Origin: a candidate division TA06 bacterium
GTDB taxonomy: Bacteria > Edwardsbacteria > AC1 > EtOH8
DNA length: 64,000 nucleotides
Assembly: GCA_016235665.1 (NCBI GenBank)
Contig: JACRJI010000010.1
Location: forward strand, 62,001 to 126,000
Direction of reading: 5' to 3'
Part shown: positions 49,230 to 53,377 of the stretch, piece by piece
How positions within the stretch are numbered: the first letter of the stretch is position 1
Layout: the number at the start of each line of letters is the position of its first letter
Notes under the pieces: model-generated
Databases searched by the model: none
Told to the model about the DNA's origin: nothing
The model's input: only the letters and a program-made list of their open reading frames with translations
Program-made: the position numbers and the translations under genes

Positions 49230-51197
49230 ATGAGCTCAAAGTTAAATCCGCAGGATAACTACCGGGCCACCCTGGCCTCCACCGGCTATGTTCCGATCAG
49301 GGAGGCCACCCAGGCCACCTACGACGCCATCGGCTTCATGTCGGGGCTGGAGGTGCACCAGCAGCTGCTGACCGATCAGAAGCTGTTCTGCCGCTGCCCG
49401 GCCGGGCGGTTCCAGAAGTCAGACGACTACGATGCCGAGATAGTCCGCCACATGCGGCCCACCCTGTCGGAACTGGGGGAATACGACGGCACCGCCCTGA
49501 TGGAATTCCGGACCCGGAAGAACATCGTCTACCGCATCAAGAGCCCCACCGCCTGTACCTACGAGGTGGACGACACCCCGCCCTTTCCCCTGAACCGCCA
49601 GGCGCTGGAGATCGCCATCGAGATCGCCCTGCTTTCCAAGCTGAACCTGGTGGGAGAGGTTCACATCGCCCGCAAGCAGTACCTGGACGGCAGCATCCCC
49701 ACCGGGTTCCAGCGCACCGCCATCATCGGGGTGGAGGGCTCGATCCCGCTGAAGCACAAGAAGGTCCGCCTGATCCAGCTTTCGCTGGAGGAGGACTCCT
49801 GCCGCGAGGTCTCCGACATCGGCCACCTCCGGATCTACCGCACCGACCGGCTGGGGATGCCGCTGATAGAGACCGTGACCTATCCCGACATGAAGAATCC
49901 GGACGAGGTGAAGGAGGCCTGCGACTACATCCGCTTTTTGAACCGCAGCACCGGCAAGGTCCGCACCGGCATCGGGGCGGCCCGCCAGGATGTCAACGTC
50001 TCCTGCACCGGCGGCACCCGGGTGGAGCTGAAGGGGGTCTCCCACACCAAGTGGATACCGCTTTTGACCCACAACGAATGCTTCCGCCAGTGGGCCCTGC
50101 TGAAGATCCGGGATCTGCTCAAAAACAAGGTAAAACAGCCCAAGGATTGGAAGATGGTTTCCGAGCCGCTGAAATCCTTGTCCGGAAAGCTGGAGAGCCC
50201 CCGGGTCCGGGAGCTTTTCAGCAACGGGAACAAGGTGATGGCGGTGAACCTGCCGGGGTTCCAAGGCATCCTGTCGCATTTTACCCAGCCCGGCAAATGC
50301 TTCGCCGACGATTTCTCGGAACGACTGAAGGTGATCGCCTGCATCGAGAGACCGAACATGACCAGCTCCGAAGCCCTGGATCCGCTTCTTACCGACAAAG
50401 ACTGGGACCAGGTCCGGACCCTGCTCCGCTCCTCAGAAGGCGACGCCCAGCTGGTCTTCTGGGGCCCGGAGGCGGACATCAAGACCGGGCTGGAGACCAT
50501 TGACGAACGCTGCCGGCTGGCCTTTGCCGGGGTGCCCAACGAGACCAGAAAAACATTTGAGGACGGGACCACCATCTTCGAGCGGGTGCTGCCCGGGGCC
50601 GACCGGATGTACCCCGACACCGATTCCAAGCCGATCCCGCTGGAGGACTCCCGGATAGAGGAGATCAGGAAGATAGTGCCCAGCGAGGTGTCCGACCGCT
50701 ACCGGCAGCTAAAGGACTGGGGCGTGCCGGAGGATTGCTACACTTACCTTTTCGTCCGGAATTTGTATCCGGTGATCGAGAAGATAATCAAAGAACTGGG
50801 GCAGGATCCCAAGACCGTGGGCGGAGTTTTCGGACATCTTTTGAAGAATATCGAGGGGCATTACAAAAAATCACCGGACTTCACTTGCGACCGCATCTAC
50901 GATCTCTATAAATACGTGGTTGACGGCAAGCTGGATGGGGAGATAGTCAAAACCATGCTGCCGGTGGTGTACCAGTATCCCAAGATGGACTTTGACTCGG
51001 TGCTGGTGAACCTTGAATTCAAGCGGTTCTCCAGGGAAGAGATAGTTTCCAAGGTACCATTCCTTAAGGATAAGTACAAGAGCATCAGGACCTCGAAACT
51101 TCCGGCATCAGAAAAACACTGGATCATGGGGCAGTTGAGGAAGATGGCAGTAGGCAACATCAAACTGGCAGAACTTTGGACGGTGATCAAAAGTTGA
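49230..51197 (+). CDS. gatE: Glutamyl-tRNA(Gln) amidotransferase subunit E (archaeal type)
   Basis: A 655-residue GatB/GatE-family protein. IGFMSGLEVHQQLLTDQKLFC opens the kinase-like domain; KSPTACTYEVDDTPPFPLNR, HIARKQYLDGSIPTGFQRT and TGIGAARQDVNVSC are the family core. An inserted GAD-like domain near residues 300-420 and the large size mark GatE and separate it from GatB (about 475). The C-terminal YqeY-like tail binds tRNA. With GatD it converts Glu-tRNA(Gln) to Gln-tRNA(Gln). GatDE is described as an archaeal enzyme, so its presence beside lpx-type bacterial genes is notable. Confidence 0.92.
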   Translation: MSSKLNPQDNYRATLASTGYVPIREATQATYDAIGFMSGLEVHQQLLTDQKLFCRCPAGRFQKSDDYDAEIVRHMRPTLSELGEYDGTALMEFRTRKNIVYRIKSPTACTYEVDDTPPFPLNRQALEIAIEIALLSKLNLVGEVHIARKQYLDGSIPTGFQRTAIIGVEGSIPLKHKKVRLIQLSLEEDSCREVSDIGHLRIYRTDRLGMPLIETVTYPDMKNPDEVKEACDYIRFLNRSTGKVRTGIGAARQDVNVSCTGGTRVELKGVSHTKWIPLLTHNECFRQWALLKIRDLLKNKVKQPKDWKMVSEPLKSLSGKLESPRVRELFSNGNKVMAVNLPGFQGILSHFTQPGKCFADDFSERLKVIACIERPNMTSSEALDPLLTDKDWDQVRTLLRSSEGDAQLVFWGPEADIKTGLETIDERCRLAFAGVPNETRKTFEDGTTIFERVLPGADRMYPDTDSKPIPLEDSRIEEIRKIVPSEVSDRYRQLKDWGVPEDCYTYLFVRNLYPVIEKIIKELGQDPKTVGGVFGHLLKNIEGHYKKSPDFTCDRIYDLYKYVVDGKLDGEIVKTMLPVVYQYPKMDFDSVLVNLEFKRFSREEIVSKVPFLKDKYKSIRTSKLPASEKHWIMGQLRKMAVGNIKLAELWTVIKS

Positions 51198-51282
51198 CCT
51201 CACCCCAACCCCTCTCCTAAAGCATTAGGCGAGGGATGGTATGGATAAAAGAATTAACACTGCATAACGGATAATTAGATAT

Positions 51283-52668
51283 ATGACAGACGACATCTTC
51301 CAAGGCTACAAAGGCGGGGGGCTGGAGGTCCTCAAGAAATACAACGTCCGGGTGTGGGGCCAGGCCGAGGTGCTCACCAGCCGCGGGCCTTTCAAGGGAA
51401 CGGTGCTGCCCCGGGCCGACCAGGACGACGACCAGCACATCGTGCTGAAGATCGCCACCGGCTACAACGTGGGCATCGACATCAAGACCATCACCGGGAT
51501 GACCGAGACCGGCTACAAGAAGGCCAACTACAAGATCCCGGAGAAGGAATTCCCGGTCACCCAGGGCCTGCCCAGGGTCAAACTGCTGGGGACCGGGGGC
51601 ACCATCGCCAGCCGGCTGGACTACCGCACCGGGGCGGTGATCCCGGCCTTTACCCCGGGCGAGCTCTACGGCGCGGTGCCGGAGCTGGCCGACATCTGCA
51701 ACCTGAGCACCGAAAAACTGTTCGCGGTCTTTTCCGAGAACATGGGGCCGGAGCAGTACAAGAAGCTGGCGGTGGCCATCGGCAAGGAGATAGAGAACGG
51801 GATCGACGGCATCGTGATCGGCCACGGCACCGACACCCTGCACTACACCGCGGCCGCCCTGACCTACATGGTTCAGAACCCGCCGGTGCCCATCGTTTTG
51901 GTAGGCTCCCAGCGCTCCTCCGACCGCCCCAGCTCCGACGCCGCCCTGAACCTGATGCACGCCACCACCGCCGCCGGGCACGGGGACATCGCCGAGGTTA
52001 TGGTCTGCATGTTCGGCCCCACTTCGGACGAATACGGCTTTTTGCACCGGGGCACCCGGGTCCGCAAGATGCATTCCTCCTACCGTTCAACCTTCCGCAC
52101 CATCGGGGACACCCCGCTGGCCACCGTCACCCGCCAGGGGGTCAAGCCCATCAAGCAGGATTACCATCCCCGGCGCAAGGACCGGAACGTAAAGATCATG
52201 CCCTACTTCGAGGAGAAGGTGGGGATGATCTACTATTACACCAACATGCAGCCGGACATGATAGATTCCATGGTGGACAACGGCTACAAGGGGATCATTA
52301 TCATCGGCACCGGGCTGGGGCACGTCAACAAGCCGCTGTACCCGGCCATCGAGCGGGCGGTGAAAAAAGGCGTAGCCATTTACATGACGGTCCAGACCCT
52401 GTGGGGCTATGTCCACATGTTCGTCTACGACACCGGGCGCGACCTGATGGCCCAGGGGGTGGTGCCGGCCCAGAACATGCTGCCCGAGGCGGCCTACATC
52501 AAGCTGGGCTGGGCGCTGGGGCAGACCTCGGACATGGAGAAGGTCCGGGAGATAATGATGACGCCCATCAACGACGAGACCACGCCCCGGGAGCCCTATA
52601 ACGGGTATTTGATCTACCAGGGCGGGGTGCCCGAGGTGGAGGAGTTCATCAAAAAAGTGCACAAGTAA
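51283..52668 (+). CDS. gatD: Glutamyl-tRNA(Gln) amidotransferase subunit D (asparaginase-type)
   Basis: A 461-residue protein. Residues 1-95 form the GatD-specific N-terminal domain; the asparaginase domain follows with LLGTGGTIASRLDYRTGAV (first catalytic Thr), VIGHGTDTLHYTAAALTYM (second Thr-Asp pair) and VLVGSQRSSDRPSSDAALNL. GatD releases ammonia from Asn or Gln and channels it to GatE. It lies 85 bases after gatE; the gap carries a CTCACCCCAACCCCTCTCC spacer repeat. Length fits archaeal GatD (about 430-460) and exceeds L-asparaginase (about 330). Confidence 0.93.
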   Translation: MTDDIFQGYKGGGLEVLKKYNVRVWGQAEVLTSRGPFKGTVLPRADQDDDQHIVLKIATGYNVGIDIKTITGMTETGYKKANYKIPEKEFPVTQGLPRVKLLGTGGTIASRLDYRTGAVIPAFTPGELYGAVPELADICNLSTEKLFAVFSENMGPEQYKKLAVAIGKEIENGIDGIVIGHGTDTLHYTAAALTYMVQNPPVPIVLVGSQRSSDRPSSDAALNLMHATTAAGHGDIAEVMVCMFGPTSDEYGFLHRGTRVRKMHSSYRSTFRTIGDTPLATVTRQGVKPIKQDYHPRRKDRNVKIMPYFEEKVGMIYYYTNMQPDMIDSMVDNGYKGIIIIGTGLGHVNKPLYPAIERAVKKGVAIYMTVQTLWGYVHMFVYDTGRDLMAQGVVPAQNMLPEAAYIKLGWALGQTSDMEKVREIMMTPINDETTPREPYNGYLIYQGGVPEVEEFIKKVHK

Positions 52669-52771: not shown

Positions 52772-53377
52772 ATGAATAACGTTTGTTTGCCTGCCAACAA
52801 AACAAAACACCACCGGCGCTCCATCCGTCTGCCGGAATACGATTATTCCCTGGAAGGGGCGTATTACATTACAATGTGTACCCAGGGGAGAAAATGTTTG
52901 TTTGGTGATATTATCGATGGATGCATGGTATTGAATCCCTATGGAGAAATTGTTAGACAGGAACTATTGCGGACCCCGGAAATCCGCCGGGAAATAACAT
53001 TGGGTGAATGGGTGATAATGCCCAATCACGTTCATGTCATCGTATTGATAAATGATCATTATGACAATGTAGGGGCGACCGGCCGGTCGCCCCTACCGTG
53101 CCGGGCCAAACCCTGTGGACCCAAACCCCATTCGTTGGCAGCATTCATTGCCGGGTTTAAATCGGGGGCCGCCAAACGGATAAATGAAATACGTAAAACA
53201 ACAGGATGCCCTGTCTGGCAGAGGAATTATTTCGAACACGTCATTCGCAGGGAAAAGGCCTACGACAGGATCAGGCAATACATCATCGAAAACCCTTTGT
53301 ACTGGGCTCTGGACGACGAAAATCCTCAAAGATTGAATAAATGCCAAAACAACAGCCCGAAAAACAATCTAAATTAA
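52772..53377 (+). CDS. REP-associated tyrosine transposase (RAYT, Y1_Tnp/HUH)
   Basis: A 201-residue HUH single-strand DNA transposase: RRSIRLPEYDYSLEGAYYIT at the start, the metal-binding HUH motif in VIMPNHVHVIVL (near residue 90), and WQRNYFEHVIRREKAYDRIR (near 155) with the catalytic Tyr. RAYTs are domesticated relatives of IS200/IS605 transposases that process REP hairpins. In this gene the 10 residues VGATGRSPLP are encoded by a perfect REP palindrome inserted in frame. Palindromes also flank the gene, and the downstream one includes the start codon of the next gene. Confidence 0.9.
   Translation: MNNVCLPANKTKHHRRSIRLPEYDYSLEGAYYITMCTQGRKCLFGDIIDGCMVLNPYGEIVRQELLRTPEIRREITLGEWVIMPNHVHVIVLINDHYDNVGATGRSPLPCRAKPCGPKPHSLAAFIAGFKSGAAKRINEIRKTTGCPVWQRNYFEHVIRREKAYDRIRQYIIENPLYWALDDENPQRLNKCQNNSPKNNLN
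53069..53096. repeat. Perfect 28-bp REP palindrome inside the RAYT gene
   Basis: GTAGGGGCGACCGG followed directly by its exact complement CCGGTCGCCCCTAC. It is in frame with the RAYT protein. Confidence 0.92.

Follow-up and report, generated by a model that had tools for sequence, protein, structure and literature searches.

The 64-kb window (the whole stretch of 64,000 nucleotides that was analysed) encodes a GatE-GatD pair, which raises the question of what this amidotransferase is doing in a bacterium. A review describes GatDE as now found only in archaea, which are without GlnRS (PMC9499178), and according to a 2014 paper no bacterium with genes for both of the pathways to Gln-tRNAGln was known (PMC4206432). 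A literature search, which for the most part covered papers outside subscription, found no paper on bacterial GatDE. The locus comprises the following features:

49230..51197, + strand: gatE, 655 aa, with a GatB/GatE catalytic (kinase/transamidase) core, an inserted domain at about residues 309-440, and helical and tail regions at about 473-655 (from the ORF list, curated models, Pfam and structure matches)
51198..51282, + strand: gap of 85 bp between gatE and gatD, which lie on the same strand
51283..52668, + strand: gatD, 461 aa, with the GatD N-terminal domain and an asparaginase-type amidase (from curated models and Pfam)

GatE scored 401 bits with the NCBIfam model gatE_arch (cut-off 320) and fell narrowly below the cut-off of a second GatE model (455.4 versus 456 bits); GatB models gave at most 114 bits, far under their cut-offs. 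Pfam recognizes the GatB/GatE catalytic domain, and its GAD and tail models gave no score. Among proteins of solved structure, the archaeal GatE entries 2D6F (E 2e-88) and 1ZQ1 (E 2e-84) are closest in sequence, with 33-34% identity over the aligned part. The alignment runs through the AspRS-like inserted domain, which AlphaFold2 models with high confidence. The best PDB matches of the AlphaFold2 model (mean pLDDT 80; residues 62-117 of the core poorly modelled) are again 1ZQ1 and 2D6F, ahead of every GatB structure. Residues E13, H15, E157 and E184, which we take to be the catalytic ones in this numbering, are kept in 84-85 of the 85 aligned bacterial sequences (one has a gap at E13 and H15). 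Family scores, trees and fold together rule out that GatE is a misannotated GatB.

GatD scored 496 bits with gatD_arch (cut-off 324) and contains GatD_N (residues 37-70) and both asparaginase domains in Pfam. Its closest solved sequences are likewise those of the archaeal GatDE complexes 2D6F and 1ZQ1, and T101, T177, D178 and K254, presumably the catalytic residues, are conserved in all 67 bacterial sequences compared. Family scores and trees exclude a misannotated asparaginase. The initial annotation had described a complete pair, with the inserted domain of GatE and the N-terminal domain of GatD; both proteins are indeed full length, both domains are present, and the checked catalytic residues are intact.

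The host assembly (G000; 2.71 Mb, 16 contigs, 100% complete, 0.21% contaminated) belongs to a small phylum of 10 genomes, which make up one family and four genera. GatE occurs in nine of the 10 (frameshifted in G006), with gatD beside it wherever the contig continues; in G002 neither GatE nor GatD was found. A contaminating archaeal contig is unlikely, given these nine occurrences and the single clean clade that the phylum forms. The GC contents of gatE (0.59) and gatD (0.63) lie inside the range of nearby genes, and the neighbours, which the initial annotation had called clearly bacterial, are of ordinary bacterial types: a periplasmic binding protein, a Nuo-20kD-like protein, a molybdopterin oxidoreductase, an IS200-like transposase, a TPR protein, and GAF-HD and CHASE2-cyclase proteins. 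The IS200-like (Y1) transposase-family ORF (52772-53377) lies directly 3' of gatD.

Whether GatCAB or GlnRS accompanies GatDE was the key question at the outset. GlnRS is present in the host genome, full length and with 699 bits in the glnS model (cut-off 426). GatB was not detected in G000, a search of the phylum's 10 genomes yielded no GatA, and GatCAB, defined as a GatB above cut-off together with GatA, was thus not found in the host. Matches to the GluRS/GlnRS family occur in all 10 genomes, most of which have two complete copies; in G000 the bacterial GluRS and GlnRS genes adjoin each other on contig 13. As AsnRS is present too, along with a bacterial AspRS, this genome already encodes direct charging with glutamine as well as with asparagine. 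The host GluRS retains an arginine aligned with Arg358 of T. thermophilus, a discriminating feature, which suggests, without amounting to proof, a discriminating enzyme; this residue is not a predictor of GluRS specificity in every phylum (PMC3927822). The GluRS of G000 (L047) is nearer to that of G001, from another genus (77%), than to its congeneric counterparts (70-72%; compared loci L049, L058 and L045), which may reflect an exchange of gltX inside the phylum. Unlike gltX, gatE follows kinship there.

To which lineage the pair belongs was addressed with a GatE tree (GatB as outgroup, three archaeal GatE sequences) and a GatD tree (two archaeal sequences). In both trees the host proteins group with GatE and GatD and fall outside the bacterial GatB and L-asparaginase clades. 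The bacterial GatE sequences cluster together, separately from the three archaeal ones (support 97/82), and GatD agrees (98/98). Support for the GatE group falls to 75/69 when two long rows are removed, and an alternative tree that joins archaea with bacterial subclade B was not rejected (p 0.16); we therefore do not claim monophyly of all bacterial GatE relative to archaea. The host phylum is a 100/99 clade nested among Bacteroidota copies (94/97), and its placement outside the other subclade A sequences was rejected (p 0.0075, for a grouping named after the tree had been seen). This nesting points to spread from bacterium to bacterium, and transfer of gatED among bacteria is well supported. 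The host GatDE belongs to a broad bacterial branch that includes Bacteroidota, Ignavibacteria, Aminicenantes, Zixibacteria, Clostridium and others. Of the archaeal transfer suggested by the initial annotation, the occurrence of GatDE in a bacterium stands; a stand-alone transfer from archaea into this genome does not, since the copies belong to a large bacterial branch, beside those of Bacteroidota.

How far this branch extends can be seen from a genome scan limited to the 80 best, and hence closest, GatE loci. None of them is titled archaeal; they come from Bacteroidales and other Bacteroidota, Ignavibacteria, Aminicenantes, Zixibacteria, Calditrichota, Cloacimonadota, Marinimicrobia, an Acidobacteriota MAG and Clostridium tagluense. 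No GatE was found in viral contigs, and a plasmid search returned one archaeal relative and otherwise weak GatB-like matches. All 38 bacterial sequences that were scanned are hit by NCBI GatE models, and such proteins may therefore be labelled GatE in databases already. Among 50 of the GatDE-bearing genomes behind these loci, GlnRS scored above cut-off in 46 (22 of the 24 outside Bacteroidota), seven have GatA, and one further genome (G059) has a good GatB. The association of GatDE with GlnRS is partly one of lineage, because the 50 genomes are non-independent and GlnRS without GatCAB may be the general state in Bacteroidota. Three of the 17 genomes in the C. tagluense genus have GatE, which lies in a gene order common to the three, and GatB occurs in none of the 17. 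GatDE is accessory there, and its absence from the other 14 genomes, as from G002, makes it non-essential in these organisms. Beside GlnRS, GatDE is an accessory system.

Such absences could mean that GatDE is a decaying remnant of transfer that no longer serves a purpose, and the frameshifted gatE of G006 and the lack of the gene in G002 fit that account. The frameshift may reflect poor assembly (G006 is 88% complete), and within the host phylum dN/dS values, calculated with the simple NG86 method, are 0.11-0.33 for gatE and gatD and 0.13-0.26 for glnS and gltX. GatDE is under purifying selection, similar to glnS and gltX. Because dN/dS is far below 1, the catalytic residues are conserved and the pair is broadly retained, we regard a relic as highly improbable.

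Locus comparison shows gatD adjoining gatE in nearly all bacterial loci long enough to show gatD. Small unrelated ORFs lie between the two genes in some relatives (L253, L255) and beside gatE in others (L252, L254), so that the genes are adjacent yet not always tightly linked. In one unclassified bacterium (G044; L159, L219) a divergent glnS is next to gatE, and in G009, a relative of the host genome, gltX lies about 3 kb from gatE (L218). No T-box or other Rfam element was found in 12 gatED loci, including that of C. tagluense. These surroundings bear on the idea that GatDE has been repurposed for a task outside protein synthesis, with the glutamate amidated on a specialized tRNA or some other carrier. 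Its redundancy with GlnRS, its patchy occurrence, its movement between phyla and its absence from most of the C. tagluense genus would be explained in this way; against this, the active sites are conserved, no third gene recurs beside gatED across phyla, and the 64-kb window contains no tRNA gene. We consider repurposing unlikely.

If the substrate is Glu-tRNAGln, recognition must differ from that in archaea. A review describes archaeal GatDE as recognizing the A1:U72 pair and archaeal tRNAGln as carrying A73 (PMC9499178). Both host tRNAGln genes have U1:A72 and G73, which is the bacterial type; the archaeal A1:U72 identity, a trait of archaeal hosts and not of the GatDE sequence, is absent. 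Bacterial GatDE must therefore have shifted its recognition or act elsewhere. The host tRNAGln(TTG) carries C2:G71, whereas E. coli tRNAGln has G2:C71, and this difference could be taken to mean that GlnRS is weak or silent and that GatDE is the main glutamine route. Two MAGs, G049 (Marinimicrobia) and G031 (Bacteroidales), in which GatE but neither GlnRS nor GatA was detected, appear to rely on GatDE alone, as expected if GatDE can make Gln-tRNAGln by itself, although these assemblies may be incomplete. In the host, the full-length, high-scoring GlnRS is under purifying selection, and G002, which has GlnRS and no GatDE, keeps tRNAGln(TTG) at 97% identity; a main route through GatDE is thus very doubtful. 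The same comparison leaves tRNAGln(TTG) unsupported as a special GatDE substrate.

In L199 (G001), L200 (G002) and L198 (G009), at approximately 1500-1970, a second copy of the 5' part of tRNAGln(TTG) precedes the intact gene by about 400 bp. Between duplicate and gene lie a hairpin-rich segment and a short ORF resembling a GIY-YIG nuclease, and Rfam gave no match in L198 and L199 other than the tRNA. We speculate that the duplicate and the GIY-YIG-like ORF may form an element that targets and restores the tRNAGln(TTG) gene.

The strongest rival account is that a relaxed AspRS makes Asp-tRNAAsn, which bacterial GatDE then amidates as a tRNA-dependent supply of asparagine. The host AspRS has His and Gly at positions that we take to be non-discriminating in P. 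aeruginosa, the host tRNAAsn has U1:A72, and E. coli protein queries found no AsnA or AsnB homologue in the 2.06 of 2.71 Mb of the host genome searched (76%, or about three quarters). There is also a precedent for an amidotransferase tied to asparagine, in Bdellovibrio with GatCAB (PMC4206432). However, AsnRS is present in the host, archaeal GatDE is described as acting on Glu-tRNAGln only, and the AspRS determinants fail as a marker, since they do not track GatDE: G002, which is without GatDE, has the same residues, and G005, a GatDE carrier, differs at the first of them. Asparagine supply is, on balance, improbable.

We hypothesize, with even confidence for and against, that GatDE is a working amidotransferase of the bacterial GatDE lineage with a correcting or backup role on Glu-tRNAGln. 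GatD would hydrolyse glutamine (or asparagine) to give ammonia, and GatE would use ATP to phosphorylate the glutamate of Glu-tRNAGln and would then amidate it to Gln-tRNAGln. The pair would thereby correct tRNAGln mischarged by GluRS, or would provide Gln-tRNAGln under limitation of GlnRS or of free glutamine, having presumably adapted to bacterial tRNAGln (U1:A72, G73). Since GlnRS is present, GatDE is most likely a second, auxiliary route. Counting against a role on Glu-tRNAGln are the bacterial type of the host tRNAGln, the Arg358-aligned arginine in GluRS and the absences of GatDE, and no partner gene points to translation, except glnS in L159 and gltX in G009. A wider proposal is more tentative and falls somewhat short of evenly balanced: the widespread bacterial GatDE beside GlnRS would provide an indirect route to Gln-tRNAGln alongside the direct one, with recognition changed to bacterial tRNAGln, as a fidelity or supply system. 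Bacteria may thus make one and the same charged tRNA in two ways.

A bacterial GatDE branch beside GlnRS alters the distribution used in last-common-ancestor arguments and affects the prediction of GluRS specificity from gene content. It also offers a testable system for asking why a mischarge-and-repair route is kept next to a direct synthetase, and its presence in a named strain, Clostridium tagluense A121, may make experiments possible.

The system resembles archaeal GatDE, as known from M. thermautotrophicus (2D6F) and P. abyssi (1ZQ1), in having both subunits and in domain order, catalytic residues and fold. It differs in its bacterial host with GlnRS and bacterial-type tRNAGln, in its separate branch in both trees, and in an N terminus that is about 28 residues longer than in the archaeal sequences. 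With bacterial GatCAB it has in common the chemistry and the catalytic core, which GatE shares with GatB; in contrast to GatCAB, ammonia would come from the asparaginase-type GatD and not from the amidase-type GatA. The closest parallel in gene content is GatCAB beside GlnRS and AsnRS in Bdellovibrio, Thermus and Deinococcus, where an amidotransferase is likewise retained despite both direct synthetases, but that amidotransferase is GatCAB, with a link to asparagine, whereas here it is GatDE.
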